39,059 nucleotides of DNA from Chloroflexota bacterium (GTDB lineage Bacteria; Chloroflexota; Dehalococcoidia; SZUA-161; SpSt-899): assembly GCA_013203045.1 (NCBI GenBank), contig JABMQN010000008.1:1-39059 (forward strand), given 5' to 3'. The first letter of the stretch is position 1. The number at the start of each line of letters is the position of its first letter. Below, piece after piece: positions 1,315-26,688 of the stretch. The notes below the pieces were generated by a model. The model searched no databases. It was not told the DNA's origin and saw nothing but the letters and a program-made list of their open reading frames with translations. The position numbers were made by a program, and so were the translations under genes.

Positions 1315-1371
1315 ACTTCGATAGTGGTGGTCTACATATACACGATTTAGCCAAAACAAGGGGGAATGATT

Positions 1372-2487
1372 ATGCTAACCAAATACGATGAATTCCTGTG
1401 TCATCAAACTGTTTCTACATTCGATCATCCCAACACCAGTGCCAGGGAGTGGACCGAGCGTATCTGGTTCATGGCTCATGATACCAAAGGAGAACTAATA
1501 CTCGTAGCCGGTTTTGGCTATTACCCCAATCGTAATATAATGGATGCATTTGTGTGTCTGGCGGTTGAAGGGAAGACCCAGCATGTAGTTAGGGCTTCTC
1601 GGGAGTTGAGACCGCGGATCGATGAAATTGAGGTGGGCCCGTTCTCTTGGGAAGTGATCGAACCTATGCGAAAACTCAGAGCCAAACTCGGTGATAACGA
1701 TTATGGCGTGAGCTATGAAATAAACTTCGATGCCACCATGCCGCCACATGAGGAAGACCCTCCGCAATTCTACCGAATTCGAGGCCGGGTGGTCGAGGAT
1801 ATTTGTCGTTATTTCCAGGTGGGCAAACCAACCGGTTGGATCAAGGTCGATGGTCAGACTCACAATATCGATCCTAATTCCTGGCGGACCTATAGAGATC
1901 GTTCCTGGGGCATTCGAAGAGGTGCCGTAGAATACATGGAGACCTGCGTGCAACCGGGCGAGATTCCGGTTGGTCTTTTATACAGCGGAGCATCATGGCA
2001 ATTCGATAACTGGGGTACATGTTACCATACCCGCGAAGACTGGGATGGTACACCCACCAACTTCAGTGGGGCAGAGTTCTATCCGTTGGGCAGCGGTAAA
2101 AACGAGCTGCATCTGGCCAGTATGGAGCACAATTTCACTTTCCGCTCCGATGTGCCGGGATTACGTCAGGTGAATGGTGGTAATGTCATTCTCAACGCCG
2201 CCAATGGTTCCAAAAAGGATGTTTCGATCCGGCCGCTTGGTGTTATCTATATCGGAACAGGCGGATACAGCCCGGCCAATTTTAGGGGATTTACTCACGG
2301 GCTTTGGATGGGACCTTCCTGGATCGATGGGTTTAAGCTGGATATCTCTGATCCCAAGACAATTCAAGAGAGCACTTTTCTGGATGAGCTGGTTTGCGAA
2401 TTGCGTTGCGGTGATGAGATTGGATATGGCATGACGGAGATCGTAGTTGTTGGTAAGTATCCCAAGTATGGATATGAGGGATTCTAG
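1372..2487 (+). CDS. AttH/lipocalin-like (DUF7064/7065-type) protein of unknown function
   Basis: Contains 'VGKPTGWIKVDGQ...YRDRSWGIRRG' typical of AttH-like folds. Paralogue of 12852-13943 (shared MLTKYDEFLCHQTVSTFDH start and GDEIGYG..E.VVVGKYP.YGYEG end). Start chosen at 1372 to match the paralogue; ATG 1366 also possible. Confidence 0.6.
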   Translation: MLTKYDEFLCHQTVSTFDHPNTSAREWTERIWFMAHDTKGELILVAGFGYYPNRNIMDAFVCLAVEGKTQHVVRASRELRPRIDEIEVGPFSWEVIEPMRKLRAKLGDNDYGVSYEINFDATMPPHEEDPPQFYRIRGRVVEDICRYFQVGKPTGWIKVDGQTHNIDPNSWRTYRDRSWGIRRGAVEYMETCVQPGEIPVGLLYSGASWQFDNWGTCYHTREDWDGTPTNFSGAEFYPLGSGKNELHLASMEHNFTFRSDVPGLRQVNGGNVILNAANGSKKDVSIRPLGVIYIGTGGYSPANFRGFTHGLWMGPSWIDGFKLDISDPKTIQESTFLDELVCELRCGDEIGYGMTEIVVVGKYPKYGYEGF

Positions 2488-3878: not shown

Positions 3879-4922
3879 ATGGCCGAGAGAGATATCTATC
3901 AGGAATTACTGGACATGATAAACAGGGAGGACGTGGTAGGATTGCCGGATACCCCGTCAATGCTGAAAGTTCTCCAATTGCAACTAACCCCCGAAGAGGC
4001 AGAACTGGCTCTTAAGATTGGTCTTGCGGGTGGAACGCTGGAGGAATTATCAGCCAAGTTGGGCATAGAGAAAGAGACACTATTTAAGAAATTGTGGACC
4101 ATGGCTGACAAAGGCACCGTGTGGATAGACCCGGGTGGTGTGAATAACCCCAATTGCAGGGTGCTTGGGGCTGCTGCTCCGGGATTAAGCGAAACTGGCA
4201 TCTGGGGGAATATCAGGTTTCCGTATGATGTCGAATTGGCCAAGAACATGCATCAGGTGATGTGGGAGTGGGCCAGGGATAAACTCTGCACACTTGGATT
4301 CCCCTTCGCACCTGTCTGGGCTCATCCGTGGGCGCTACCGGATGATGCGAAACCCGAAGAAAACCTGGCGGAATTTCTTAAGAGCCAAGAGCACTTCAGT
4401 GTATCGTTCTGTCCCTGCCGGCTCTCTCACTGGATTGCTGATCCCGGCAATCATTGCGAGCATATTCCAGAAACCTGTCTTCATACCGGAGATACCAGCC
4501 GATGGTGTGTAGAACATGGTCAGGGACGCGAGATCACCTATGAAGATGCTCTTGAACTTTTGAGGAAGACAAATGCCGATGGACTGGTTCATACCATCAA
4601 CATCAACGGTTTTATCTGCAATTGCTGTGATGACTGCTGCCCCCTGTTTATGGGGTTCCACAAATTGAACGTCAAGACGATGGTCCCATCTCCCTTCATA
4701 CCAAAGATCGATGAAGACACGTGTATTGCATGCGGAGACTGCGCAGACCTATGTCCGGTGAAGGCTGTAAAAGTTGAGAAAATTGCCACAGTCGATGGTG
4801 ATATCTGCATTGGATGCGGTGTATGTGTTACGCACTGTCCATCTGAATCTATGGCTCTGGTCAGAAGGCCTGATTCTGAAGTAACCCAGATTCCGGATGA
4901 TGTAAAACAGCATATGGGATAG
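3879..4922 (+). CDS. Cys-rich 4Fe-4S dicluster ferredoxin-like protein, ~345-aa family, copy 1
   Basis: wHTH-like N-terminus (TPEEAELALKIGLAGGTLEELSAKLGI), CPCRLSHW..., ICNCCDDCCPLF, then CIACGDCADLCP and CIGCGVCVTHCP. Confidence 0.8.
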   Translation: MAERDIYQELLDMINREDVVGLPDTPSMLKVLQLQLTPEEAELALKIGLAGGTLEELSAKLGIEKETLFKKLWTMADKGTVWIDPGGVNNPNCRVLGAAAPGLSETGIWGNIRFPYDVELAKNMHQVMWEWARDKLCTLGFPFAPVWAHPWALPDDAKPEENLAEFLKSQEHFSVSFCPCRLSHWIADPGNHCEHIPETCLHTGDTSRWCVEHGQGREITYEDALELLRKTNADGLVHTININGFICNCCDDCCPLFMGFHKLNVKTMVPSPFIPKIDEDTCIACGDCADLCPVKAVKVEKIATVDGDICIGCGVCVTHCPSESMALVRRPDSEVTQIPDDVKQHMG

Positions 4923-4966: not shown

Positions 4967-6001
4967 GTGGCAGAAAAGGATATCTATCAAGAAGTATTGG
5001 ATATGGTAAACCGTGAGGACATAGTCGGCTTACCGGATACCCCGTCGATGCTTAAGGTTCTGCAATTGCAATTCACACCTGAAGAAGCCGAGTTGTCTTT
5101 GAAGATAGGTCTAACTGGGGGAACTCTGGATGAGCTATCAGAGAAGACAGGGATAGCCAAAGATGAACTCAAGAAAAAGCTCTGGACCATGGCCGACAAA
5201 GGCACCATGTGGATCGACCCGAGGGGTGATAATCCGACCTATAGAGTATTGGGAGCTGCTGCTCCAGGGCTCATTGAAACAGGCATGTTCGGCAACATCC
5301 GCTTCCCCTATGATGTGGAACTGGGGAAAGCCCTTCACCCGGCAGTAGTCGAATGGGCCAGAGACCGGCTCTGCACCCTGGGTTTCCCTTTTGCGCCCAT
5401 CTGGGCTCACCCCTTCATTCTCCCGGATGATGCCAAACCTGAAGAGAACATCGCCGAATTTCTTAGGGGTCAGGATTATTTCAGCGTATCGTCATGTCCC
5501 TGTCGCCTCTCCCACTGGATAAGTGATCCGGGTAACCATTGTGAGCATATGTTGGAGACCTGCTTGCATTCTGGGGAAGCAGCACGGTGGTTTGTTCAAC
5601 ATAATCAAGGACGCGAGATTACCTACGAAGATGCTCTTGAACTGCTTAAAAAGGCGAACGCTGACGGGCTGGTACATTCCATCAATATCAACGGATTCAT
5701 ATGTAATTGTTGCACCGATTGCTGTCCCTTGTTCGTAGGCTTCTATGAGTTCAATACCAAAACTATGGTCCCCTCTCCATTCATACCGAAGATTGAAGAG
5801 GACGAATGCGTTGCTTGTGGGGATTGTGCTGATATCTGCCCCATGAAAGCTATTACGGTTGATCAAATTGCAGTCGTTGATCCAGATACATGCATTGGCT
5901 GTGGTGTGTGCATCACGCATTGCCCATCAGAAGCGATGGCATTTATGAGGAGACCGGAACAAGTCGAACTACCCGAAGACGTAGCCAAACACGTCGGGTA
6001 G
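4967..6001 (+). CDS. Cys-rich 4Fe-4S dicluster ferredoxin-like protein, ~345-aa family, copy 2
   Basis: GTG start after AAGGAGG; same architecture as copy 1: CPCRLSHW, ICNCCTDCCPLF, CVACGDCADICP, CIGCGVCITHCP. Confidence 0.8.
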   Translation: MAEKDIYQEVLDMVNREDIVGLPDTPSMLKVLQLQFTPEEAELSLKIGLTGGTLDELSEKTGIAKDELKKKLWTMADKGTMWIDPRGDNPTYRVLGAAAPGLIETGMFGNIRFPYDVELGKALHPAVVEWARDRLCTLGFPFAPIWAHPFILPDDAKPEENIAEFLRGQDYFSVSSCPCRLSHWISDPGNHCEHMLETCLHSGEAARWFVQHNQGREITYEDALELLKKANADGLVHSININGFICNCCTDCCPLFVGFYEFNTKTMVPSPFIPKIEEDECVACGDCADICPMKAITVDQIAVVDPDTCIGCGVCITHCPSEAMAFMRRPEQVELPEDVAKHVG

Positions 6002-6255: not shown

Positions 6256-7296
6256 ATGGCAGAGAAAGATGTTTATGAAGAACTGGCAAATATGTATCTT
6301 ACGGAAGATTTTGTCGGTATACCAACGACACCTGCTTTTATGAAGCTTCTTCACTTGCAGTTTACGCCGGAGGAAGCGGCTTTATCACTGAAGGTGCGGT
6401 TCGATGGCGGAACACTGGATGAATTATCCGGGAAAACCGGCATGGATAAGGACAAGCTTAAGGAGATGTTCTACACCATGGCGGACAAAGGCACTATATG
6501 GTTCGATCCCGGTGATGACGATCCCGTCTATAAAGCAGTGCTGGCCGCTGCACCCGGACTGGTTGAAACCGGCATCTGGGGCGGTATCCGGCATCACTAT
6601 GATGTTGAACTGGGCAAGGCACTTTACGAGGTTGTTGCCGAGTGGGGAAAGCAAACGTTGTGTAACCTGGGCTTTCCTTTTGCTCCGGTATGGGCGGCGC
6701 CATCCGCATTACCCGATGATGCGCTTCCGGAGGAGAACTTGGCTGAAGTACTTAGAGCGGAGGACCATTTCAGTGTAGCCCACTGCCCCTGCCGTACCAG
6801 CGCTCAACTTCACCATCCCGGCGAACACTGTGATCATTTAATTCAAACATGCCTTCACTCTGGCCCTGTCAGTCGCTGGACCTCCAAGTTTGGGCTGGCC
6901 AAAGAAATAACCTACGATGAGGCTATGGACCTGCTGAAAAAGGTCAATGAAGACGGACTTGTTCATACCCTCAACATAAACCACTGTGTTTGTAACTGCT
7001 GTAATGACTGTTGTCCTATCTTCACAGGGCAGCTCCAGCACGGTGCGCAGACAATCATCCCGTCACCGTTTGAGGCAACTGTAGATGAAGGAACGTGTAC
7101 TTCTTGCGGCGATTGTGCGGATGCGTGTCCAATGGGTGCAATCGCTGTAGAGGGATTCGCCGAAGTGAATCAAAGTCTGTGTATCGGGTGCGGAGTGTGT
7201 GTTACTCGATGCGATACAGGAGCTATGACATTGGTTCGACGGCCCAGCCCCGAAGAATCTCAGATCCCGGACGATGTCAAAGAGCACATGGCATAG
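6256..7296 (+). CDS. Cys-rich 4Fe-4S dicluster ferredoxin-like protein, ~345-aa family, copy 3
   Basis: Same architecture: CPCRTSAQ, CVCNCCNDCCPIF, CTSCGDCADACP, CIGCGVCVTRCD; RBS aggagg upstream. Confidence 0.8.
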   Translation: MAEKDVYEELANMYLTEDFVGIPTTPAFMKLLHLQFTPEEAALSLKVRFDGGTLDELSGKTGMDKDKLKEMFYTMADKGTIWFDPGDDDPVYKAVLAAAPGLVETGIWGGIRHHYDVELGKALYEVVAEWGKQTLCNLGFPFAPVWAAPSALPDDALPEENLAEVLRAEDHFSVAHCPCRTSAQLHHPGEHCDHLIQTCLHSGPVSRWTSKFGLAKEITYDEAMDLLKKVNEDGLVHTLNINHCVCNCCNDCCPIFTGQLQHGAQTIIPSPFEATVDEGTCTSCGDCADACPMGAIAVEGFAEVNQSLCIGCGVCVTRCDTGAMTLVRRPSPEESQIPDDVKEHMA

Positions 7297-8654: not shown

Positions 8655-9659
8655 ATGTCTGAAAATGATGTTTATGAAGAACTGGCTAAAATGATCGGCG
8701 AGGAAGATGTCGTGGGCATGCCGCCTACACCGGCGTTTATCGATGTTTTGCGATTGCAATTTGCCCCGGACGAAGCGGATTTGGCACTGAAAATTCATCT
8801 CTCCGGTGGTACTCTTGACGAGCTTTCCGAGCGACTGGGCATCGAAAAAACCAAGCTGTACGAGAAATTCATGGTCATGGCTGACAAAGGCACTATCATT
8901 TACGATCCGGCGGACGAGGACCCTGTTTACAGATGCGTGGGCATGACGGCCGGAGGCCTCACCGAAACTGGTGTCTGGGGAGGAATCCGGTTCCCTTATA
9001 CAGTGGAATTGGGCAAAGCTATCTATCGCGCCATGAGGGACCATTCCGAATTGGCCCTGGGTAAGCTGGGATTCCCTTACACACCAGTGTGGGCTGCCAA
9101 AATGGCCCTGCCGGAGGATGCCACTCCGGAAGAGGACCTTACCGAGGCAATCAAGGAAGCGGGTCACTGGAGCATCTCTCCATGTCCCTGCCGTATGGCC
9201 CGAGTACTCACGACTCCCGAAGATCCCTGCCAGCATATGTTGCATACATGCGTTCACACCGGTGCTCTGAGCAGGTGGGCAGTCAAACATGGAATGGCTC
9301 GTGAACTGACCCATGAACAAATGGTGGAACTACTGAGAGAGTGCAATGAAGATGGTCTGGTTCATACGATCAACATCTACGGGCAGATTTGTAATTGTTG
9401 CGAGGATTGCTGCGGTATTTTCGAAACATTCAAGATGGGGGCACCCACTTTCATTCCTTCCCCATTTATGGCGCAGGCTAATGAAGACACATGCACGGCC
9501 TGCGGTACCTGTGCAGAACGTTGCCCGGTGGATGCAATTGAGGTAGATGCCTTTGCCATCGTTAGCCAGGACAAATGTATTGGATGTGGGGTATGTGTTC
9601 CCACCTGTCCTGCCGATGCGATTAATCTGATTCGACGCCCCACACCTGAGCAAGCCTGA
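8655..9659 (+). CDS. Cys-rich 4Fe-4S dicluster ferredoxin-like protein, ~345-aa family, copy 4 (immediately upstream of AOR)
   Basis: CPCRMARV, ICNCCEDCCGIF, CTACGTCAERCP, CIGCGVCVPTCP; 22-nt gap to the AOR gene. Confidence 0.8.
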   Translation: MSENDVYEELAKMIGEEDVVGMPPTPAFIDVLRLQFAPDEADLALKIHLSGGTLDELSERLGIEKTKLYEKFMVMADKGTIIYDPADEDPVYRCVGMTAGGLTETGVWGGIRFPYTVELGKAIYRAMRDHSELALGKLGFPYTPVWAAKMALPEDATPEEDLTEAIKEAGHWSISPCPCRMARVLTTPEDPCQHMLHTCVHTGALSRWAVKHGMARELTHEQMVELLRECNEDGLVHTINIYGQICNCCEDCCGIFETFKMGAPTFIPSPFMAQANEDTCTACGTCAERCPVDAIEVDAFAIVSQDKCIGCGVCVPTCPADAINLIRRPTPEQA

Positions 9660-9681: not shown

Positions 9682-11658
9682 ATGTCAACATTCGGATATG
9701 CCGGGAAGATTTTATGGGTAGATTTATCTTCCGGTGAAATAACTGAATCCCCCACTCACGATTATGCCGATAGGTTTCTTGGCGGCAGAGGTTTTGCTGC
9801 CAAAATCTATTGGGATGAAGTCCCCCCAGAAACCGAAACGTTTGATGAACGCAACACGCTGATATTTGTCTGTGGTCCTCTGTGCGGTCTTCCCGGCATC
9901 AGTAGTTCCAGATGGACAGTATGTGGCAAGTCACCAAAAAGCCCGGGGACATTCAACTATGGTAGCTTTGGTGGAACATGGGGAGCCGAGATGAAATTCG
10001 CCGGTTATGATGCCATTGTAGTTCAAGGGAAATCGGATAAACCGGTCTATTTGTCTATCAATGATGGAACCGCGGAATTGAAAGACGCCTCTAGTCTCTG
10101 GGGAAAAGGTGCTATTGAAACTCGGGAGATGTTGAAAGGTGAAATGGACAAATCGGTGAGAGTTGTGGCCATCGGCCCGGCTGGAGAAAACCTAGTAAAC
10201 TTTTCTCTCCTAACAGCTGATAACGAAGCTACTGGATCCGCTGGCCTTGGCGCCGTGATGGGTTCAAAGAAACTGAAAGCGATTGCGGTAAGGGGCACAA
10301 AGCGAAAAGTGAACGTAGCCCACCCAGAGAAATTCAAAGAGCTTCAGCACTATTTCCGAGATTCGGGCCGGAACTTCCCGGAATTCCTCAATCGATGGGT
10401 AAGAGATCCGTTTAATGAGTTCAAAATTGTCCCAGGCCCGGAGATGAAGAAGGACCCTTGCTATGGTTGCCTTGGCCGGTGCCCCAGAAAAGTCTATCAG
10501 GCCGCTGATGGGAGAACCGGTAAGTTCTTCTGCCACTCCGCCTATTTTTATCAACCCTGGGCAGACCGGTATTACGGGGACTGGAATGAGAATCCCAACG
10601 ATGTTCCCTTCAATGCTACACAGCTTTGTGATGATTATGGGCTTGAGGTGAAGGCTGTCGACCTTACCATAAGCTGGCTCCTAGCCTGTTATGAGGCCGG
10701 GATAATCACCGATGAGAGTATCGGCATACCGATATCAAAGCTTGGCAGTATGGAGTTTATTGAGACCCTGGTACAAAAGATTTCTTTCCGTGAGGGGTTC
10801 GGGGACCTTTTGGCGCAGGGAATCGACAAAGCAGCGGAGGCGTTGGGTCCAGCGGCCAAAGAACAAGTTGAACGCCAGGGCTATCTTTCCACTCACGGGG
10901 CCGATGTATTCGGGCCCCGAGTTTATATTGTCAGCGGACTGCTCTACGGAATGGAACCACGGCAACCCATCCAGCAACTGCATGAAGTAGCCTTCGTAGT
11001 TGCCAAATGGACCCTTGCAGCTATCCACGGTCCCGAGATGAGTCATGTATCCACAGAGGTGCTGCAGGCTATCGCTCGCAGATTCTGGGGAAGCGAATCG
11101 GCTGTCGATTTCTCCACTTACGAAGGTAAGGCATTGATGGCAAAGAAAATCCAGGATCGCCAGTACGTAAAAGAAAGTCTCATTCTGTGCGATTTCCTGT
11201 GGCCGGTAGTCGATCTCGAATCCAGTGAAGACCATGTTGGTGACCCTACACTCGAGAGCAGGATTCTCTCTGCTGTAACCGGAAATGAAGTTAGTGAGGA
11301 AGACCTTTACAAGATAGGCGAAAGGGTCTTTAATCTACAAAGAGCCATTCTGGTGAGAGAAGGGCACAGGGGAAGGGAATTTGATACACCACCAGAGCGC
11401 TGCTTTACCGTACCGGTAGAGTTTGATGTGGCTAGTCCCGATTGTCTGATGCCGGGCAAGAATGGCGAATTGATATCCCGAAAGGGAGCAGTGGTGGATA
11501 GGGAACAGTTTGAAAGAATGAAGGACGAATACTACAAAATCAGGCAGTGGGATGTTGCGACGGGCCTGCAGACAAGAAATCAACTGGAGGAATTGGACTT
11601 GGGTGACATAGCCAATGATCTTGAAAAACGAGGGCTTTTAGGTATAGGAGTACGATGA
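9682..11658 (+). CDS. Aldehyde:ferredoxin oxidoreductase (tungsten AOR family)
   Basis: GYAGKILWVDLSSGEI...RFLGGRGFAAKIYWDEV N-terminus; CYGCLGRC Fe-S motif; later LILCDFLWP fits the fourth ligand position. Confidence 0.92.
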   Translation: MSTFGYAGKILWVDLSSGEITESPTHDYADRFLGGRGFAAKIYWDEVPPETETFDERNTLIFVCGPLCGLPGISSSRWTVCGKSPKSPGTFNYGSFGGTWGAEMKFAGYDAIVVQGKSDKPVYLSINDGTAELKDASSLWGKGAIETREMLKGEMDKSVRVVAIGPAGENLVNFSLLTADNEATGSAGLGAVMGSKKLKAIAVRGTKRKVNVAHPEKFKELQHYFRDSGRNFPEFLNRWVRDPFNEFKIVPGPEMKKDPCYGCLGRCPRKVYQAADGRTGKFFCHSAYFYQPWADRYYGDWNENPNDVPFNATQLCDDYGLEVKAVDLTISWLLACYEAGIITDESIGIPISKLGSMEFIETLVQKISFREGFGDLLAQGIDKAAEALGPAAKEQVERQGYLSTHGADVFGPRVYIVSGLLYGMEPRQPIQQLHEVAFVVAKWTLAAIHGPEMSHVSTEVLQAIARRFWGSESAVDFSTYEGKALMAKKIQDRQYVKESLILCDFLWPVVDLESSEDHVGDPTLESRILSAVTGNEVSEEDLYKIGERVFNLQRAILVREGHRGREFDTPPERCFTVPVEFDVASPDCLMPGKNGELISRKGAVVDREQFERMKDEYYKIRQWDVATGLQTRNQLEELDLGDIANDLEKRGLLGIGVR

Positions 11659-12851: not shown

Positions 12852-13943
12852 ATGCTCACAAAATACGATGAATTTCTTTGTCACCAGACCGTATCTACTT
12901 TCGATCACGTTGAGACCAGTGCCCGACAATGGACCGAGAGGGTTATTCTTCACACTCACGATACCAAAGGCAAATTTCATCTGAGTAATGGATTCGGCAT
13001 CTACCGCAATCGGAATATCATCGATGCCTACGCATGCCTCAATTTGGACGATCAGACCCAATACAATGTTAGAGCTTCCCGTGAACTTCTGAGTCAACCG
13101 GATGAACTCACGGTTGGGCCTTTCTCTTATGAAATCATAGAACCTCTTAAAAGAGTTCGTTACTCTCTGGCCGAGAATGAACATGATCTCAGCTACGACC
13201 TGGAGTTCGATGGAATCATGCCCTGTCACGAAGAGGATTTACAGTTCTTCCGAATCCGCGGGCGAGCCGAAGAGCATGTGGTGCGCTACGATCAGGTCGG
13301 CAGGGCAAGTGGATGGATCAAGGCTGGCGGGCAAAAATATGAAGTGGATAAGTCCAATTTCTATGTGGAAAGAGACCATTCTTGGGGATTGAGACGAGAT
13401 GGTGTTCCAGAAGTTGGTGTCCAACCGGGTGATATTCCTGAGGGATATCTATACAGTTGGGCCGTGATGCAATTCCCCACGTGGGGCGCTGCATATCACA
13501 TAAGAGAGCTCTGGGATGGCACCCCACTTCTTTCCAGTGGTGGGGTGTTCTATTCGTATGGAAGCCAGAAAGAGGAGTTGAAAGTCAACAAGATCGAACA
13601 CGATTTTCAATTCCTGCCCAAAAGGAGGAAGGCCGCTTCAGGTCGAGTAAAGCTTCATACTTCCGATGGTTCCACTGTTGATATTTCAATGAGACCTCTT
13701 TCATATGCTTGCCTAAAAGCAGGCGGCTATTTCGGGCATAACGGTTTTGTCCACGGCCAATGGATGGGAGAAAACTGGAGTGACGGATACAAGCTGGATT
13801 TGACCGATCCTGCGGTTCTTGACGATGTCTCTTTCCTCGATAACACATCTTGCGAGTTGAAGTGCGGTGATGAAATCGGTTATGGAGTATTGGAGCTGGT
13901 CGTGGTTGGCAAATACCCTCGATATGGATATGAAGGGTATTAG
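12852..13943 (+). CDS. AttH/lipocalin-like (DUF7064/7065-type) protein, paralogue of 1372-2487
   Basis: 'YDQVGRASGWIKAGGQKYEVDKSNFYVERDHSWGLRRDG' motif; aaggaggcaa RBS upstream. Confidence 0.6.
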   Translation: MLTKYDEFLCHQTVSTFDHVETSARQWTERVILHTHDTKGKFHLSNGFGIYRNRNIIDAYACLNLDDQTQYNVRASRELLSQPDELTVGPFSYEIIEPLKRVRYSLAENEHDLSYDLEFDGIMPCHEEDLQFFRIRGRAEEHVVRYDQVGRASGWIKAGGQKYEVDKSNFYVERDHSWGLRRDGVPEVGVQPGDIPEGYLYSWAVMQFPTWGAAYHIRELWDGTPLLSSGGVFYSYGSQKEELKVNKIEHDFQFLPKRRKAASGRVKLHTSDGSTVDISMRPLSYACLKAGGYFGHNGFVHGQWMGENWSDGYKLDLTDPAVLDDVSFLDNTSCELKCGDEIGYGVLELVVVGKYPRYGYEGY

Positions 13944-16860: not shown

Positions 16861-17787
16861 ATGCACAATGAAACAAGCAAGGCTCTTTACGAAGCATTGT
16901 CTTTGGAAGATAAGAACGATTTTTTCCCTGCTTATCTCTATCTGAAATATATTGACCATTTCATGAGTAAAGTACTTCAATCATTGGGCATGCCTACAAC
17001 AGAACTTCCGTTCGAGTTAGGTGCCGATCTAGACGCGATGATGGAAGCTTACGTCCAGGAAGTCTCCGAAGCAGCTCCGAGCGCAGATACCAGCATCTAC
17101 CATGCCAAAGTGATAAAACTGAAGGATGCTCTCCAATTGGTGACACAGAAAGCGGATGTTGAATTGGATATCTCGGAGAAAGTGATTCCCTTCAAAGTGG
17201 CCAAAGACATTCTTCTTCATAATCCGGACTCCATCGCAGTAGGAAGGTGTCCCTGCCGAGCAGCAGCAGAGAAGTCCTGTCTACCACCTCCGATGGAAGT
17301 ATGCCTCTTTGTCGGTGATCCCATTGCTTCTTTCATTGGTGACCAGAACCAGCATTTCCGTCCGTGTACACAGGAAGAAGCAGTGCGTGTTCTTGAGGAG
17401 TCTCACAAGAATGGATTCGTACAAACTGCGTGGTTTAAAAAAGAACTTGGTAATAGTTTCCACATGATATGCAACTGTTGCAGTTGTTGCTGCATGGGGA
17501 TCAAGATGTGGAATTTGTTGGAAGGCACCGTTCCTATTATGGCCCCTTCCGGGTATGTGGCTGAAGTAGGCGATGATTGTTCCGGGTGTGCCACCTGTGT
17601 GGATGAGCATGCTTGCCATTTTAATGCCATTACCATGAGTGAGGAAGGGGATAAGGCGGTTATCAATTTCGATAAGTGCATGGGATGCGGTGTTTGCGAG
17701 GATGTCTGTCCGGATAAGGCAATAAGGCTTCGCCGCGAACCGGCAAAGGGAGAACCTTTGGACCTCGCCGAATTGATGGGGCAGTAG
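16861..17787 (+). CDS. Cys-rich 4Fe-4S ferredoxin-like protein, 308-aa family, copy 1
   Basis: CPCRAAAEKSC, ICNCCSCCCMG, CSGCATCVDEHAC (atypical), CMGCGVCEDVCP. Confidence 0.8.
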   Translation: MHNETSKALYEALSLEDKNDFFPAYLYLKYIDHFMSKVLQSLGMPTTELPFELGADLDAMMEAYVQEVSEAAPSADTSIYHAKVIKLKDALQLVTQKADVELDISEKVIPFKVAKDILLHNPDSIAVGRCPCRAAAEKSCLPPPMEVCLFVGDPIASFIGDQNQHFRPCTQEEAVRVLEESHKNGFVQTAWFKKELGNSFHMICNCCSCCCMGIKMWNLLEGTVPIMAPSGYVAEVGDDCSGCATCVDEHACHFNAITMSEEGDKAVINFDKCMGCGVCEDVCPDKAIRLRREPAKGEPLDLAELMGQ

Positions 17788-17818: not shown

Positions 17819-18745
17819 ATGCGTAACGAATTGACTCAGGCGTTGTGGGAGATATTTCCCCAGGGAGAGAAAGGGGATTTCTACAATATCTACATGTATT
17901 TAAAGCACCTGGACCATTTCATATACAAAGCGCTCGAAGTTTCGGGTATGCCCGCCAAGAGGCCTGAAAGCGAAATAAGTGAAGATGTTGAGGAGATGCT
18001 GGAGGCCGTTGTTTTAGACATTGCGGAGAATGCGGGCAGTCGCGATACAAGTACATATCATGGCAAAGTGATAAAGCTTAGGGAGGCTTTGCAGTTTGTT
18101 AGCCAGAAAGAGAACATCTCATTGGAGGCTCCAGAGACTGTGATCCCCTATAAACAGGCAAGGAGCATCATTTTAGAAAACCCCACGTCTCTTGCGGTGG
18201 GGGAATGCCCATGCCGAGCGGTTGCGGAAAACCCCTGTTTACCTGAGGGGGAAAGGGACGTATGTCTGTTCGTCGGTGATCCGCAATCTGCTTTCCTCGC
18301 AGAGTATAATCAGAAGTTTCGGAGTATCACTCAAGATGAGGCTGTTCGCATCCTCGAGGATGTTCACGAGAAAGGATTTGTACATTGCGCCTACTTCAAA
18401 AAACATTTCGCCCGTCGATTCGTGGCTATCTGCAATTGTTGCAGTTGTTGTTGCCAGGGAATGAAGGCTTGGAACATGTTTGGGGGAGCCATTCCGATCC
18501 TTGCATCTTCTGGGTATGTCGCGGAGATAAGCGACGAATGCATGGGGTGTGGTGATTGTGTGAGCACATGCAATTTCTTTGCCATCAGCATGGATGAAAA
18601 CGAACAGAAGGCCGTTGTTGATTTGGAAAAATGTATGGGATGCGGTGTTTGCGAAGATAAATGCTCAACTGGGGCTATCAGTCTCAGAAGGGAGCCCTCA
18701 AAAGGGGAGCCTTTGGATCTGGCTGAGTTGCTGAACAAAGTGTAA
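17819..18745 (+). CDS. Cys-rich 4Fe-4S ferredoxin-like protein, 308-aa family, copy 2
   Basis: CPCRAVAENPC, ICNCCSCCCQG, CMGCGDCVSTCN, CMGCGVCEDKCS; collinear with the preceding CDS. Confidence 0.8.
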   Translation: MRNELTQALWEIFPQGEKGDFYNIYMYLKHLDHFIYKALEVSGMPAKRPESEISEDVEEMLEAVVLDIAENAGSRDTSTYHGKVIKLREALQFVSQKENISLEAPETVIPYKQARSIILENPTSLAVGECPCRAVAENPCLPEGERDVCLFVGDPQSAFLAEYNQKFRSITQDEAVRILEDVHEKGFVHCAYFKKHFARRFVAICNCCSCCCQGMKAWNMFGGAIPILASSGYVAEISDECMGCGDCVSTCNFFAISMDENEQKAVVDLEKCMGCGVCEDKCSTGAISLRREPSKGEPLDLAELLNKV

Positions 18746-19194: not shown

Positions 19195-19977
19195 ATGATT
19201 GTCGGAGGATGTGACATCGGTTCCACCACTGGTAAAGCAGTGATTATGAAAGACGGGGAAATAATTGCAAGTACTATCATCCCCTCTACCACCAAACCGG
19301 AGGAAACGGCCCGCATGGCCATGGATGAAGCCTTAAAACAGGCGGATCTATCTTCAATTGATGATCTGGACTACATCGTGGGCACGGGTTACGGCCGGCT
19401 CAAAGTTCAATTTGCCAAAGAAAACATCTCGGAAATATCCTGTCATGCCCGGGGAGCTCACTGGATGAGTCCCACGGTAAGAACAGTAGTTGATATCGGT
19501 GGACAGGACTGCAAAGTAATGTCTATCAGCGATGAAGGCAAAGTCGTGGAATTCGTGATGAATGACAGATGCGCTGCCGGCACCGGCAGGTTTTTTGAAG
19601 GAATGGCCAGAGTGCTGCATTGCGGACTTGATGGTATATCATCCCTGGAAAATCAGGGGGCAGAACCGTCCACCATCACCAGCCAGTGCAGCGTGTTTGC
19701 CGAATCTGAAGTTGTTACCCTGATCAACGAAGGGAGCGACTTGAAAAACATCATCGCCGGAATCAACAATTCGGTATCAGGCCGCCTGAATTCGATGGTC
19801 CGAAAAGTTGGGTTGGTTGAAGATGTAGCTCTAACAGGCGGATGCGCCAAGAATGCGGGTCTGGCCAAAGCGCTGGAAAAACATTTAAAAGTAAGCGTGA
19901 AACAATTGCCCCATGACCCGCAAATAGCAGGTGCCGTGGGAGCGGCTCTAATCGCAGTAGAAAAGGCAGCAGGCTAG
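19195..19977 (+). CDS. Acyl-CoA dehydratase/reductase activase (BadF/BadG/BcrA/BcrD/HgdC ATPase family)
   Basis: GCDIGSTTGKAVIM, VVDIGGQDCKVM, NDRCAAGTGRFFE, LTGGCAKN. Confidence 0.93.
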   Translation: MIVGGCDIGSTTGKAVIMKDGEIIASTIIPSTTKPEETARMAMDEALKQADLSSIDDLDYIVGTGYGRLKVQFAKENISEISCHARGAHWMSPTVRTVVDIGGQDCKVMSISDEGKVVEFVMNDRCAAGTGRFFEGMARVLHCGLDGISSLENQGAEPSTITSQCSVFAESEVVTLINEGSDLKNIIAGINNSVSGRLNSMVRKVGLVEDVALTGGCAKNAGLAKALEKHLKVSVKQLPHDPQIAGAVGAALIAVEKAAG

Positions 19978-20004
19978 AATCTTCAATCAAAAGGGGAAAG
20001 CGAA

Positions 20005-21150
20005 TTGGAAACAAACATCAAATCAAAAACGCTTGATGAATTCAAAACAATCACCGGAACCATGATCAATCCGGCAGTACAAGAATGGAAAGACAACGGG
20101 GGCAAGGTTATCGGGTATTTCTGCTGCAACATACCTGATGAAGTTATGACTGCCGCCGGAATACTTCCGTTACGCTTAAGAGGAACGGGCAGCACCGGAA
20201 CAGAGCTCTCGGATGCATTTTACTCCAGCATCAACTGCTCATTCCCTCGCCACGTTTTCAACATGGCTCTCAACCATGAATTCGACATTCTCGATGGGCT
20301 CATCGTTCCCAACAGTTGTGATCACATTCGTCGAATATACGATAACTGGCTCCGCCAACTGGATATCGGATTTCTTGAGATGTTCAACCTTCCCCGAAAG
20401 GTCGAAGAACCTCAGGTTCAGTGGTACAAAGATGAAGTGCATCTTCTGGTGGAAAAGCTCGAAAAGCAATTTGGAGTTGAGATAACTGAAGAGAAGCTCA
20501 AAAATGCCATAAAACTCCACAACGAAAACAGGCGGCTGTTAAAACAAATCTACGAACTGCGCAAAGTGGATAACCCTCCAATTACCGGCGGTCAGATGAT
20601 CGCAGTGATAGTGGCTGGCACCGCCATCCCCAGAGACAAGTACAACGAAATGCTTAAAGAACTGCTGGAAGATCTCAAGGGAGCCGAGGGCATCAAGGAT
20701 CATCGGGCACGACTGATGGTATTAGGCGGCATTCTTGACGACCCTGAATATATGGATATCCTTGAGGACCAGGGCGGACTGGTAGTTACCGATTCAATCT
20801 GTTTCGGAACTAGGCTTTTCTGGACCGAAGTCAGCGAAGAGGGCGACCCGTACGAAGCCATCGCCAGATACCAGATACAGCAACGGCCAACCTGCCCCCG
20901 CAGCTATGGGGATCAGCCCAAGAGAGCCCAATATCTTCTGGACATGATCAAAGAATTCAAGGTAGATGGGGTTATCGGCGAAAGACTTCTGTTCTGTGAC
21001 TCGTGGGTGGTCGAGCACTACATGAACGATCAGGACCTTAAAGAAGCCGGAGTTCCATTCCTGAAGCTGGACCGGGAGTACATCCTGAGCGGCAAGGGGC
21101 AACTACGAACCCGGGTTCAGGCATTCCTGGAAATGCTGGGAGGTAAATAA
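20005..21150 (+). CDS. 2-hydroxyacyl-CoA dehydratase / benzoyl-CoA reductase-like subunit (HgdB/BcrC-like), pair 1 subunit a
   Basis: GYFCCNIPDEVMTAAGILPLRLRGTGSTGTELSDAFYSSINCSFPRHVFNMAL...PNSCDHIRRIYDNW; TTG start. Confidence 0.88.
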   Translation: METNIKSKTLDEFKTITGTMINPAVQEWKDNGGKVIGYFCCNIPDEVMTAAGILPLRLRGTGSTGTELSDAFYSSINCSFPRHVFNMALNHEFDILDGLIVPNSCDHIRRIYDNWLRQLDIGFLEMFNLPRKVEEPQVQWYKDEVHLLVEKLEKQFGVEITEEKLKNAIKLHNENRRLLKQIYELRKVDNPPITGGQMIAVIVAGTAIPRDKYNEMLKELLEDLKGAEGIKDHRARLMVLGGILDDPEYMDILEDQGGLVVTDSICFGTRLFWTEVSEEGDPYEAIARYQIQQRPTCPRSYGDQPKRAQYLLDMIKEFKVDGVIGERLLFCDSWVVEHYMNDQDLKEAGVPFLKLDREYILSGKGQLRTRVQAFLEMLGGK

Positions 21151-22487
21151 TGGATAACACTGATCTTAGCACACTTGGTCGGAAAGAAGTTCTGGAAAAA
21201 TCACTGACCCGCTATAGGAAGGAGCGCGACTGGTTCCAGATGTTTCTGGACGCACTCAGTATGATGCCGGAACTGAGCGAGGAAGACATCCTCCAGCAAA
21301 AAATGCTCACCATCCTGCTAGAATCGAAACAAACAGTTCTGGATTGCGCTGAAAACAACAAACCGTTTATCGCTGGATACTTTTGCAATGCGCCTGAGGT
21401 TTTCCATGCCATGGACCTCCCCTGGTACATGCTTATGGAAACGCCCTTCTTAGCAGCCTCCGCACCCTATTTGGCAGATGATATCAAGGGAACAGAGGAA
21501 ATCGGGCTTGGCTCCGACCTGTGCACTGCCATCAGACTCCCGATTTACTACATCGAAACAGGGCAAATGCCCATCCCTTCGGCCGTTCTGGGATTGATCT
21601 ATCCCTGCGATGGCGCACCCATGCTGCATCAGGTAATGATGCACAACAAGGCATGGAAGGACGTTCCTGTATACGCCGCGGATCCGCCGTATACTTCGGA
21701 TGAACGTGCAATAGACTATTTCGCCGATGAACTCAAACGGATGGCTGAGTTTCTTCAGAAGCACACCGGACATTCACTGGATATGAAGAGGCTGGCGCAG
21801 GTCTGCGAAGACGGCAACAAGACATACAGCAAATGGCAGGAGTACAATGAGCTAAGGCGCGCGGTACCCTGTCCTCATGGTTGGAGCATAGGTGGGCCAC
21901 AGGCCTTTGCAGTAAGCCAGTGTTTTGTGGCCGGCGATCCCAAGTGCACCGACTGGTTCGAGCAACTGGTCAAGTGCGCCGAAATTCGGGTGAACGCCGG
22001 TGAAGGTATTCCCGGGGTAAAGGAAAGAATCCGCTACTTCTGGTTTGATATCATGCCTTACGGATGGATATTTGAATTGATGCCCTGGCTGGAAGAAGAA
22101 TGGGGCGCGATACTGACAATGGATATGTTCGGGAACTATCCATATACGCTAATTGATACTTCCAGTGAGGAGAAGATATGGAAGGGACTGGCCAAGAGAA
22201 ATCTTATTGACGCGCCCATGATCCGGCAGGCACGCGGCACAGCGGAGAACTTCTCTAACGATATCCGCCGGATTGTGAAAGACTACAAGATCGATTGTGT
22301 TATCTGGCCGGGGCACATGGGTCACAAGGATGGGTCGGCCGCCGGCGGAATCATGCGCCAGACCTGCCGGGAACTGGATGTTCCTTTCCTGCAAATCGGG
22401 TTGGATCTCTTCGACAGGGCATATACCAACCCTGATGAAGTAAAAGACAAGATATCGAAGTTCTTCACCTCGATGGGGCTGGGATAA
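21150..22487 (+). CDS. 2-hydroxyacyl-CoA dehydratase / benzoyl-CoA reductase-like subunit, pair 1 subunit b
   Basis: TAATG overlap with preceding CDS; 'NKPFIAGYFCNAPEVFHAMDLPWYMLMETP...IDCVIWPGHMGHKDGSAAGGIMRQTCRELDVPFLQIGLDLFD'. Confidence 0.85.
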   Translation: MDNTDLSTLGRKEVLEKSLTRYRKERDWFQMFLDALSMMPELSEEDILQQKMLTILLESKQTVLDCAENNKPFIAGYFCNAPEVFHAMDLPWYMLMETPFLAASAPYLADDIKGTEEIGLGSDLCTAIRLPIYYIETGQMPIPSAVLGLIYPCDGAPMLHQVMMHNKAWKDVPVYAADPPYTSDERAIDYFADELKRMAEFLQKHTGHSLDMKRLAQVCEDGNKTYSKWQEYNELRRAVPCPHGWSIGGPQAFAVSQCFVAGDPKCTDWFEQLVKCAEIRVNAGEGIPGVKERIRYFWFDIMPYGWIFELMPWLEEEWGAILTMDMFGNYPYTLIDTSSEEKIWKGLAKRNLIDAPMIRQARGTAENFSNDIRRIVKDYKIDCVIWPGHMGHKDGSAAGGIMRQTCRELDVPFLQIGLDLFDRAYTNPDEVKDKISKFFTSMGLG

Positions 22488-22559
22488 TAGAAATCAGGAG
22501 AGTTCTCCCTCTGGTAAAGCCTGTCCTGAGCGCAGCCGAAGGATGGATAAATGGAAACC

Positions 22560-22594
22560 GCGGGCGGTGGTAGGCGACTCTTATCATCGCCCGC
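22560..22594. other. Intergenic hairpin between the two dehydratase subunit pairs
   Basis: gcgggcggtg (22560-22569) pairs with catcgcccgc (22585-22594; one G-T pair), no T-tract. Confidence 0.5.
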
Positions 22595-22642
22595 TTAACT
22601 ATCCAATCTTGAATCGACTCATTATAGAAGGAGGATGACATC

Positions 22643-23788
22643 TTGGAAACCAAGTTGAAATCTAAGGCGCTTGATGAATTCATTCAAGTGGCCAGTACCA
22701 TCGCCAATCCCGAGATTCAAAAATGGAAGGATAACGGTGGCAAAATCATGGGTTACTTCTGTTCTGCTATGCCCTCTGAACTGATTACCGCCGCCGGCAT
22801 GCTCCCCTTCCGGCTAAGGGCTACCGGAAGCACCGGAACAGAGCTTTCGGATTCGTATTTCAGCAGCATCAACTGCACCTTTCCCCGACACGCGTTCAAC
22901 ATGGCGCTCAAAGGTGATTTCGATTTCATCGATGGGCTGGTAATTTTCAATAGTTGCGACCATATCCGTCGGGTTTATGATCACTGGATTCGCCAGCTAG
23001 ACACTCCTTTTGTTAAGATTCTGAGCCTTCCCAAGAAGTCGGGGGCTCAACAAGTGGAATGGTTCAGGAGCGAATTGGCTATTCTGAGAGAGAATATGGA
23101 AACCCAGTTCGGGGTGAAAATCACCGATGACAAACTAAAAGAAGCTATCAAAATCCATAACGAAAGCCGACGACTCTTGAGAGAACTCTATGAACTGCGT
23201 AAAAGTGATAATCCTCCCATTACCGGCGCTCAGACGATGGCCGTTACGGTGGCCAGTACAGCCATGCCTCCGGAGCGGTATAACCAGTTATTAAAAGAGC
23301 TTCTGGATGATGTCAAACGTGCGGAAGGAAACACCGATTATCGGGCGAGATTGATGATCCTCGGGGGCGAACTCGATAATCCGGAATTCCTTAAGGTTAT
23401 TGAAGACCTGGGCGCATTGGTGGTAACCGATTCGGTTTGCTTCGGTTCAAGACTACTGTGGAAGGATGTGGATGAAAGTATCGATGACCCCCTCACAGCC
23501 CTTGCTCAATATCAGGTTAACGAACGGCCTTCCTGTGCCCGCATGTTCACTGAATATGAAAAGAGAGCCGAATATGTTCATAGCATGCTTAGTGATTTCA
23601 AGGCTGACGGGGCCATTTTTGCACGGCTCACTTTCTGTGAGGTATGGGGATTTGAACAATACTCAATGATCAATGATTTTAAGGAGTGGGATATACCCCT
23701 TCTTTGTATCGACCACGAGTATACGTTGAGTGGAGTCGGACAGCTACGGACACGGGTCCAGGCATTCTTGGAAACGATGGGGAAATAG
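22643..23788 (+). CDS. 2-hydroxyacyl-CoA dehydratase / benzoyl-CoA reductase-like subunit, pair 2 subunit a
   Basis: TTG start; METKLKSKALDEF... collinear paralogue of 20005-21150. Confidence 0.88.
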   Translation: METKLKSKALDEFIQVASTIANPEIQKWKDNGGKIMGYFCSAMPSELITAAGMLPFRLRATGSTGTELSDSYFSSINCTFPRHAFNMALKGDFDFIDGLVIFNSCDHIRRVYDHWIRQLDTPFVKILSLPKKSGAQQVEWFRSELAILRENMETQFGVKITDDKLKEAIKIHNESRRLLRELYELRKSDNPPITGAQTMAVTVASTAMPPERYNQLLKELLDDVKRAEGNTDYRARLMILGGELDNPEFLKVIEDLGALVVTDSVCFGSRLLWKDVDESIDDPLTALAQYQVNERPSCARMFTEYEKRAEYVHSMLSDFKADGAIFARLTFCEVWGFEQYSMINDFKEWDIPLLCIDHEYTLSGVGQLRTRVQAFLETMGK

Positions 23789-23790
23789 AA

Positions 23791-25092
23791 ATGGATGAGA
23801 AGAAAGAAAGAAGTCTATCCAGAATAAGAGAAGAACTGGCCATGTATGAGCCTGTAGTCGAACTTCTAAAACTAGAGCCGGGGGAAATGGGTCATCTCCA
23901 GTTACCGATAGTAGAAAACATCGTTGAACAGCATAAAGGGACTATAGAATGTGTCGAGGAAGGGAAAACGTTTTTGGCCAGTCAGTTTACAAACCCGGTT
24001 GAGATTCTGACGGCCATGGATGTTCATTGGTATTTTCATATTCAGCAGCTTTTTGCTGCTAGCGGTAGTGGCGGCGGATTGCACACAGACGAAGATCTTG
24101 AAGGAGCTGATAAGCTCAATATACCCAGAGACTGCTGCACGCTCATCCGTCTGGGGCATTATCTCCAGGTTGCCGGATTGTATCCGATACCGACGGCTTA
24201 CCTTTCAATTACAGAGCCTTGTGACAGTATAGCTGGTTGGCATGCAGCTTTTATGCACCATCCGGATTGGCGTAATATCCCTGTCTTTGCACCGGACCCG
24301 CCCTATCACACCGACGAAAGGGCTATCGACTATTATGCCAGGCAGATGAGGGAAATGGTTGATTTCATCACTGAACACACCGGTCAAACGCTTGACATGG
24401 ACCGACTCAGAGAGACAGTCGAGGAAACGAATAAGGGTTATGCGTTGTGGATGGAATACAATGAAATCAGAAGGTCTTCACCAACTCCCCACAGCTACAC
24501 ATTACCTCTATCATGTTTCTTTCAGATCAATACTTTAGGAGCAGGTGACCCCAAGAAAACGCTCTGGTATAAAGACATTGTTGCCGATGCTGAGAGGCGA
24601 GTGAAAGAGAACAAACCCGAGTTCCCGAATCAGAAAATAAGGGTGTTCTGGTATGATATCCAACCCTTCTACTTTGGAGAAATCGTGAGTTGGCTGGAAC
24701 AGGAGTGGGGTGGAGTTATTGCAATGGATATGGTGAGCTATTGCCCCTATGAACTGATAGATACCTCCACTGAGGACAGTATGTTCCAGGGGCTTGCCAA
24801 GAGAGCTTTCCAACATGGACCCATGGTACACCAGGGACGGGGATTGGCAGAAAATGTTATCTATGATATAACTCGAATCGTAAAAGACTATAAAATTGAC
24901 TGCGTGATTTTCCCGGGCCATATGGGGCACAAGGATATGGCTGCCAGCAGCAGTATTATGAGGGAAACATGCCGGGAACTCGGTGTCCCGTTCCTCTACA
25001 TTGGGTTGGATGTAGCCGACCACCGATATACCACTGCGGATGAGATAAAGGATAGGATATCCCAGTTCTTTACCGCTATGGGTCTGGGATAA
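23791..25092 (+). CDS. 2-hydroxyacyl-CoA dehydratase / benzoyl-CoA reductase-like subunit, pair 2 subunit b
   Basis: Paralogue of 21150-22487 ('IDCVIFPGHMGHKDMAASSSIMRETCRELGVPFLYIGLDVAD'). Start at ATG 23791 just after the upstream stop; the 23686 ORF start lies inside the upstream gene. Confidence 0.85.
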   Translation: MDEKKERSLSRIREELAMYEPVVELLKLEPGEMGHLQLPIVENIVEQHKGTIECVEEGKTFLASQFTNPVEILTAMDVHWYFHIQQLFAASGSGGGLHTDEDLEGADKLNIPRDCCTLIRLGHYLQVAGLYPIPTAYLSITEPCDSIAGWHAAFMHHPDWRNIPVFAPDPPYHTDERAIDYYARQMREMVDFITEHTGQTLDMDRLRETVEETNKGYALWMEYNEIRRSSPTPHSYTLPLSCFFQINTLGAGDPKKTLWYKDIVADAERRVKENKPEFPNQKIRVFWYDIQPFYFGEIVSWLEQEWGGVIAMDMVSYCPYELIDTSTEDSMFQGLAKRAFQHGPMVHQGRGLAENVIYDITRIVKDYKIDCVIFPGHMGHKDMAASSSIMRETCRELGVPFLYIGLDVADHRYTTADEIKDRISQFFTAMGLG

Positions 25093-25111: not shown

Positions 25112-25882
25112 ATGTCCAAGTACGATGAACATATAGAAAACGTCGATAAGTATCTGCGAGGGCGGCAGGTGCGGGAGTTCAACTGCCCCCCTTCGGTCGA
25201 TGACCTGAAAAAGGATTTGCCGGTTCAAGTAGGTCCCAGATCCAATCCCGGAATAATCCTTCGATCAGATATGTTTGCTGAACTGGGCAACCCGGCCGAG
25301 GGCTCCAGCGGATTTATCGTATGGACCGAGGATACTTCGCTGGTTCGCGATGGCAGAATTACCCTCATTGGACCCGATATCCCGGATTTGGAAGGAGCCA
25401 GCGTGCCTTTCGGGCAGGTATTGATGATAGCCGGAGAAAAGCTCGATACCGAAGTCCAGGAGAGAATTGAAGAGTATCAACACATTTCCGATTACCTTGA
25501 AGGGTACATGGTTAGAAGCTCATCTCAAAGTATCTGGGGGAGAGTGAGTAAGGATTCTGTGGCCAAAGGTTTCAACATGGAGATATTGGGTAAAGCCTTG
25601 ATGATCAACATGAAATCCAATGTGCCTGAAATTGAAGCCATGGAAGTAGTCTTTGTAACCTCCAATAAGGATGATGTCAAACAACTGGGCGAGATCGCTG
25701 TTGAGGTTGATGATGTTAGGAAGGATATTATTAAGGCTGTCTGGAAAGAACGAGGGTATGATTTAGACTGTGATCTCGATTGCAACTCATGCGAATCCAA
25801 GGTAACTTGCGATGATATCAGGGATATAATCCGTGCTCAGAAGGAAAAGGGGACGGCTGAGATAGGCGGAAGCGAGGGATAG
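25112..25882 (+). CDS. Short CO dehydrogenase/acetyl-CoA synthase beta-subunit (CdhC/AcsB)-like protein
   Basis: 'FIVWTEDTSLVRDGRITLIGPDIPDLEGASVPFGQVLMIAGEKL...IWGRVSKDSVAKGF' resembles the CdhC/AcsB core; ends with Cys-rich DCDLDCNSCESKVTC instead of an A-cluster region. Confidence 0.65.
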   Translation: MSKYDEHIENVDKYLRGRQVREFNCPPSVDDLKKDLPVQVGPRSNPGIILRSDMFAELGNPAEGSSGFIVWTEDTSLVRDGRITLIGPDIPDLEGASVPFGQVLMIAGEKLDTEVQERIEEYQHISDYLEGYMVRSSSQSIWGRVSKDSVAKGFNMEILGKALMINMKSNVPEIEAMEVVFVTSNKDDVKQLGEIAVEVDDVRKDIIKAVWKERGYDLDCDLDCNSCESKVTCDDIRDIIRAQKEKGTAEIGGSEG

Positions 25883-25884
25883 AT

Positions 25885-26688
25885 ATGGCTGAGCCATCAC
25901 TTCAAAACAAAAACCTTTTTGCGGTGTGTGGCAAAGGTGGTGTAGGCAAAACTGCCATCACTGCCATGATGAGTCGCGTACTGGTTGAAAACGGTAAAGC
26001 CGGAAAACTGCTGGTAATAGATGCCGACCCTGCCATGGGCCTTTTAACTGCTCTGGGCATCCGGGTCAATCGTACTATGGGGCAGGTCCGCGAGGATATT
26101 ATTAGAACCTCACGTAGCGGCAAACAGCAAGATAAAGACCACATTATAGATTCACTCGACTATATGGCGTTTGAGGCACTCGAAGAACTGGATGATTATG
26201 CTCTGCTGGCTATGGGACGCACCGAAACGCTGGGCTGCTATTGCCCGGTCAACACCCTTTTGCGAGGAACCATTGAAACCCTATCGAAAAGTTTCGATAC
26301 TATTCTTATTGATGGTGAAGCAGGATTAGAGCAAATTAACCGGCAAGTGGTTCGTCGATTAAACACACTTATCATCGTCTCGGATGCGACTGCACGTGGT
26401 ATTGAGACGGCAGAGATGATCAAAGATATGGTGGAAAACGATAAAGTGATCCAGTGTGAAAGACTCGGATTGATCTTTAACCGTGTTTCCAGCAACGAGG
26501 ACCTGCTCAGAAAAGCGGTGCAGAAGATCGGTCTTGAGCTTTTTGGAATAATTCCTCAGGATGAAAACATCGCGTATCATGATTTGGTGGCAAAGCCAAT
26601 TACTGAATTGCCAGCCGATTCGCCAGGCCTTGTTGCTGTCCGTGACATTGTAGAGAATGCGATCGGAATTAAATCGCATATATCTTGA
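25885..26688 (+). CDS. CooC-type / MinD-family P-loop ATPase
   Basis: FAVCGKGGVGKTAITAMMSRVL (deviant Walker A), LLVIDADPAMGLLTALGI, ETLGCYCPVNTLLR, ILIDGEAGLEQINRQV. Confidence 0.85.
   Translation: MAEPSLQNKNLFAVCGKGGVGKTAITAMMSRVLVENGKAGKLLVIDADPAMGLLTALGIRVNRTMGQVREDIIRTSRSGKQQDKDHIIDSLDYMAFEALEELDDYALLAMGRTETLGCYCPVNTLLRGTIETLSKSFDTILIDGEAGLEQINRQVVRRLNTLIIVSDATARGIETAEMIKDMVENDKVIQCERLGLIFNRVSSNEDLLRKAVQKIGLELFGIIPQDENIAYHDLVAKPITELPADSPGLVAVRDIVENAIGIKSHIS

Follow-up and report, generated by a model that had tools for sequence, protein, structure and literature searches.

A cysteine-rich domain in small Dehalococcoidia proteins, related to the N-terminus of IsrA, a putative isoprene reductase, is a likely site of an additional metal-sulfur centre

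The 39,059-nucleotide stretch of Chloroflexota DNA analysed here (the window) encodes a series of related proteins in which two ordinary [4Fe-4S] ferredoxin motifs follow a region rich in additional cysteines, raising the question of what these cysteines bind and what kind of protein carries them. In the first of the proteins (copy 1) the Cys-rich signature lies at positions 4402–4653, where the first-pass annotation had placed it, and corresponds to residues 175–258. Copy 1 consists of a winged-helix-like region (residues 1–85), a Cys-rich domain which we refer to as Cys6 (residues 86–272), and an ordinary 2[4Fe-4S] ferredoxin (residues 275–325). The positions of all copies and their neighbours are given in Table 1.

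Table 1. Cys6 genes of the window, their motifs and neighbouring genes
Feature	Positions	Strand	Remarks
Copy 1, 347 aa	3879..4922	+	ORF; AlphaFold2 model, pLDDT 92.6
Copy 1 motif 1, CPCR...C...C	4410..4478	+	C178, C180, C193, C200; sequence CPCRLSHWIADPGNHCEHIPETC
Copy 1 motif 2, ICNCCDDCC	4614..4640	+	C247, C249, C250, C253, C254
Copy 1, two ordinary [4Fe-4S] motifs, CIACGDCADLC and CIGCGVCVTHC	4722..4838	+	Pfam Fer4; individually 4722-4754 and 4806-4838
Copy 2, 344 aa	4967..6001	+	76% identical to copy 1; motifs 5495-5563, 5699-5725
Copy 3, 346 aa	6256..7296	+	58% identical to copy 1; motifs 6784-6852, 6988-7014
Copy 4, 334 aa	8655..9659	+	54% identical to copy 1; motifs 9183-9251, 9387-9413
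Aldehyde ferredoxin oxidoreductase (AOR) family (tungsten enzyme), large subunit	9682..11658	+	AFOR_N, AFOR_C; likely partner of copy 4
Copy 5, 308-aa type, CNCCSCCC	16861..17787	+	motifs 17248-17304, 17467-17493
Copy 6, 308-aa type, CNCCSCCC	17819..18745	+	motifs 18206-18265, 18428-18454
Acyl-CoA dehydratase/BCR-type activase and two pairs of HGD-D (benzoyl-CoA-reductase-like) subunits	19195..25092	+	PF01869, PF06050, TIGR00241; possible partners
CooC/AcsF-type ATPase with GCYCP (CxC)	25885..26688	+	best PDB match CooC1 3kje, E 7e-11; possible nickel insertase

The signature, CPCR-x(6-12)-C-x(6-8)-C followed by [IV]CNCCxxCC, is present in all six window paralogues, as had been claimed, and in each of them precedes both ordinary ferredoxin motifs; the variant CNCCSCCC noted for the 308-aa type occurs in both proteins of that length. 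In copies 5 and 6 the spacing within motif 1 is shorter than in the 334–347-aa copies 1–4, and the winged-helix-like N-terminal region is largely missing. Position 252 is Asp in copies 1–4 and Cys in most relatives. The domain tree places copies 1–4 together as a tandem expansion (support 0.87) and assigns copies 5 and 6 to a second subfamily that also includes other genes of the window genome. The number of paralogues initially given, six, is correct for the window but an undercount for the genome, because the latter holds 21 copies of the domain; none of 39 relatives exceeds seven. In the window genome the Cys6 domain occurs in no open frame of more than 456 aa. By its RpoB this genome is closest to Dehalococcoidia (69% to the genome of L072, with nearly the entire query aligned).

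Pfam and NCBIfam models matched the ferredoxin part of the window proteins and left the Cys6 region uncovered; residues 1–270 have no known domain model apart from weak helix-turn-helix (HTH) matches. Matches to pentatricopeptide repeats and DEPTOR in the domain-profile searches involved short helical stretches only and were judged spurious. Similarly, sequence searches against the PDB matched the Fer4 part alone, with no solved structure over the Cys6 region. The AlphaFold2 model of full-length copy 1, built from a 90-sequence alignment, has a pTM of 0.89, and the isolated domain was predicted with pLDDT 86.3 and pTM 0.83. Foldseek searches with the full model gave good scores to ferredoxin domains only, and those with the isolated domain returned nothing with E <1.

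Conservation of the cysteines was assessed in an alignment of 90 members with a mean column identity of approximately 26%. Sixteen columns are invariant in this alignment: C178, C180, C200, C247, C249 and C254 (copy 1 numbering), the eight Fer4 cysteines and two glycines; C193, C250 and C253 are conserved in at least 90% of the members. Cysteines at ten positions were further counted in 194 aligned domains, some of them redundant. All ten are kept in 110 domains, nine in 63, eight in 1, seven in 10 and six in 10, and none of the 194 has fewer than six. Judged from these alignments, the Cys pattern of the family is far beyond chance. The core six (178, 180, 200, 247, 249 and 254) include both CxC pairs, and since at least six of the ten cysteines are always kept, it is very likely that the Cys6 domain holds an extra metal-sulfur site. 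Some members of the IsrA type, discussed below, read CxCR...S...C and ICNCAPGVC and thus retain the core six only, spanning both motifs. Six cysteines are also found in some divergent stand-alone members, among which C193 occasionally replaces C200. Two independent cubanes are less well supported by the six-Cys members than a single site built from both motifs, to which most stand-alone members would add accessory cysteines.

A published relative of the domain is found in the isr operon of Acetobacterium wieringae, described by Kronen et al. in 2023, which encodes the putative isoprene reductase IsrA (PMC10134865). The first ~270 residues of IsrA align with the corresponding residues of the 350-aa ferredoxin of the same operon and matched no known domain (PMC10134865). 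Six cysteines, the CxC pairs 180/182 and 254/256 among them, are near one another in a ColabFold model of IsrA and were suggested as the ligands of a fifth Fe-S cluster, 'cluster V', at the end of the substrate tunnel; the site is hypothetical and may involve nickel, and three nickel chaperones are encoded in the operon (PMC10134865). We found no report of the isolation of cluster V. When the domain profile was run against 291 genomes of a single Clostridia class, approximately 20 proteins of 830–990 aa matched with E values of 1e-30 to 1e-48. The three of these that were scanned for domains contain Cys6 followed by Fer4, Fer4_20 and Pyr_redox_2. The spacing between the two CxC pairs is 74–75 in the Clostridia proteins and 74 in IsrA, the first Fer4 motif starts at 292–308 in their shorter forms and at 289 in IsrA, and hypA and/or hypB adjoin 13 of 16 of the Clostridia proteins. 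The Clostridia proteins were assigned to the IsrA family by this domain layout, spacing, length and neighbourhood, and in the tree they form one clade inside the Cys6 family. On the grounds of these profile matches, architecture, spacing, association with hypA/hypB and position in the tree, the window proteins are stand-alone relatives of the IsrA N-terminus. The earlier annotation overlooked that the domain is widespread and has a published relative.

The window proteins and IsrA share the homologous domain with its two CxC pairs and six core cysteines, the winged-helix-like N-terminus and an ordinary Fer4 motif just after the domain. They differ in that the Fer4_20 and Pyr_redox_2 (FAD/NAD(P)H) module is absent from the six window proteins, which instead have two adjacent Fer4 motifs and three or four more motif cysteines, and in that no hypA or hypB lies within the window. 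The isr-operon 4Fe-4S ferredoxin VUZ27135.1, compared by its published description, resembles the window proteins in its length (350 aa) and in having an IsrA-like first 270 aa followed by Fer4, but only one [4Fe-4S] cluster was predicted in its C-terminal part (PMC10134865). By homology to the published IsrA prediction, the six cysteines would also be grouped in space in the window proteins. The suggestion that the dense cysteines form an additional metal site is well supported by conservation across phyla, by retention of at least six of the ten cysteines, and by homology to IsrA with its grouped cysteines (PMC10134865); the accompanying suggestion of a non-standard cluster is a plausible hypothesis, strengthened by the published relative, considering the six thiolates, the two CxC pairs and the nickel chaperones beside many relatives.

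The strongest competing explanation is that the window proteins are polyferredoxins, in which C178/C180/C193/C200 would bind one extra [4Fe-4S] cluster and C247/C249/C250 or C253/C254 another, giving a wire of four [4Fe-4S] clusters like the small subunits WorS and AorA of aldehyde oxidoreductases. Most members have 16–18 conserved cysteines, so that four cubanes could be accommodated. The small subunits of Class II WOR do carry four [4Fe-4S] clusters, and, as in the WorS/AorA systems (PMC13328260), the gene for an Fe-S protein with cysteines sufficient for several clusters is found beside an AOR gene, in our case that of copy 4. However, the window proteins are twice the size, have only two canonical CxxCxxCxxxC motifs rather than four, and carry an unrelated Cys6 domain whose motifs do not follow that pattern. 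Moreover, two Cys4 cubanes are impossible in members with only six cysteines in the region, and the cysteines of both motifs are grouped in the published IsrA model (PMC10134865). We consider a four-cluster wire unlikely, though it deserves more weight than the other alternatives considered below.

Other known Fe-S proteins were also compared. The C-terminal ~50 residues of the window proteins resemble bacterial 2[4Fe-4S] ferredoxins, from which the proteins differ by a further ~270 residues containing the conserved Cys-rich domain. The double-cubane [8Fe-9S] HGD-D family was rejected: the Cys6 proteins have no PF06050 match, and the HGD-D subunits are encoded by separate genes. The HdrB-type CCG cluster (CX31-39CCX35-36CXXC) does not fit in spacing, C200 being 49 residues from C249-C250, and no CCG model matched copy 1 at E values up to 0.05.

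The genes surrounding the Cys6 copies share a theme of anaerobic redox chemistry, which would suit the role of a redox module. Copy 4 ends 22 nt upstream of the AOR gene. Among 13 Cys6 loci of the window genome, five have one of the 23 AOR matches no more than 5 kb away (p ~0.002 under random placement, with the 5-kb cut-off chosen after looking at the data), and an arrangement of AOR, kinase-like and Cys6 genes recurs on contig C270. The 23 matches, which are to the aldehyde ferredoxin oxidoreductase C-terminal domain, represent an unusually high number of putative tungsten enzymes for one genome. On contig C173 an HGD-D pair, a CooC-type ATPase and two Cys6 genes recur together. For the HGD-D region of the window (19195-25092), the best curated match is to the double-cubane reductase family, below its cut-off (211 of 350 bits). 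CooC/AcsF-type CxC ATPases are encoded near Cys6 genes both in the window (25885-26688) and in L189 (3983-4729), in both cases directly downstream of HGD-D genes or of an acetyl-CoA synthase (ACS) beta fragment; they may be nickel insertases for some client. The ACS-beta relative of the window (25112-25882) is short and stand-alone, with the CdhC domain only (E 3e-24) and a Cys-rich tail; a full-length ACS frame of 742 aa is found elsewhere in the genome. Two further proteins of the window (1366-2487 and 12852-13943) resemble each other, and the second clearly belongs to the Rv3169 family (E 2e-99); the cluster in which both are encoded also contains branched-chain-type ABC binding proteins.

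Nickel maturation genes are found near other members. In the window genome, hypA at the end of contig C50 and hypB at the start of C253, contigs with overlapping ends, adjoin a further copy of Cys6. A search for the large subunit of [NiFe]-hydrogenase found none above cut-off in this genome, which is 92.6% complete. In L008, L024, L044 and L047, hypB, with or without hypA, adjoins stand-alone members or lies near them; the 2023 isr study did not find such an association for its stand-alone ferredoxin (PMC10134865). Old-yellow-enzyme-type flavoproteins, FAD oxidoreductases and acyl-CoA dehydrogenases are further neighbours of the family. Speaking against a role with a partner enzyme, many members elsewhere have no obvious partner, 42 of 85 being without a close neighbour on the same strand.

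Taken together, the explanation that we find likely is that the Cys6 domain, homologous to the IsrA N-terminus, carries an extra polynuclear metal-sulfur site and exchanges electrons with a partner enzyme through the attached ferredoxin. The Cys-rich motifs would be the metal-binding core of an unnamed domain which is also the N-terminal part of IsrA. The six core thiolates, assisted by up to four accessory cysteines, would hold one or more such sites, and the ferredoxin part would pass electrons between this centre and the partner. In this Dehalococcoidia lineage the likeliest candidates for the partners are tungsten aldehyde oxidoreductases and HGD-D/benzoyl-CoA-reductase-like enzymes, which would replace the FAD/NAD(P)H module to which IsrA has the domain fused; this assignment of partners, drawn from the gene neighbourhoods, we regard as tentative, with a chance of being correct that falls a little short of even. 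The proteins are most likely redox modules that feed anaerobic reductases or oxidoreductases or are part of them. A bolder and rather doubtful extension is that Cys6 is a small portable module bearing a new catalytic cofactor of the metal-sulfur type, either high-nuclearity Fe-S or Ni-Fe-S, whose maturation would involve HypA/HypB- or CooC-type proteins. The module would serve anaerobic C=C or acyl reduction, being flavin-fused in IsrA and, in Dehalococcoidia, Desulfobacterota and Lokiarchaeota, a separate subunit of tungsten or HGD-D enzymes.

A very different function, that of a redox-sensing transcription regulator whose winged-helix N-terminus binds DNA and whose Fe-S sites respond to a metabolite or to the redox state, would be in line with the low-significance winged-helix profile matches (TrmB in 34 and NirDL-like HTH in 12 of 90 members). 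HTH regions of the NirDL type occur in enzymes too, however, and the N-terminal region in question is common to stand-alone members and IsrA-type flavoproteins but largely lacking from the 308-aa copies, and the genes stand in tandem and beside enzymes, which makes such a role highly improbable. Least probable of all is that the extra cysteines bind zinc in a purely structural role, as dense cysteines do in some known zinc sites, because six to ten of them exceed the need of one zinc and every member has two Fer4 motifs and anaerobic redox contexts.

The family extends well beyond the window genome. At least 412 related loci were found in a scan of GTDB genomes, the best 80 of which belong to Lokiarchaeota, Desulfobacterota, Firmicutes, Chloroflexota and others. 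A plasmid collection yielded four weak relatives only, which bear the annotation '4Fe-4S binding protein' or '4Fe-4S dicluster-binding protein' or lack one altogether. Divergent shorter members of 271–291 aa are encoded in L189 (6700-7512), L188 (8355-9197) and L199 (960-1832); one directly adjoins an AOR gene and one a full-length copy. Literature searches on the CNCC motif, on the combination of BCR, AOR and Dehalococcoidia, and on newer isoprene reductase work found no characterised family member and no study of the Cys6 site more recent than 2023. We thus found no paper describing the family as such, its site having already been hypothesised in IsrA.

The six-Cys site proposed for IsrA is accordingly also present in small proteins of ~340 residues, which can be numerous within one genome, are found in distant phyla and are encoded beside tungsten and benzoyl-CoA-reductase-like enzymes. 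Such small stand-alone members could be the simplest route to the nature of the six-Cys metal site, and metal data on one of them would also let a large unannotated family, now known only as '4Fe-4S binding protein', gain a name and a function.
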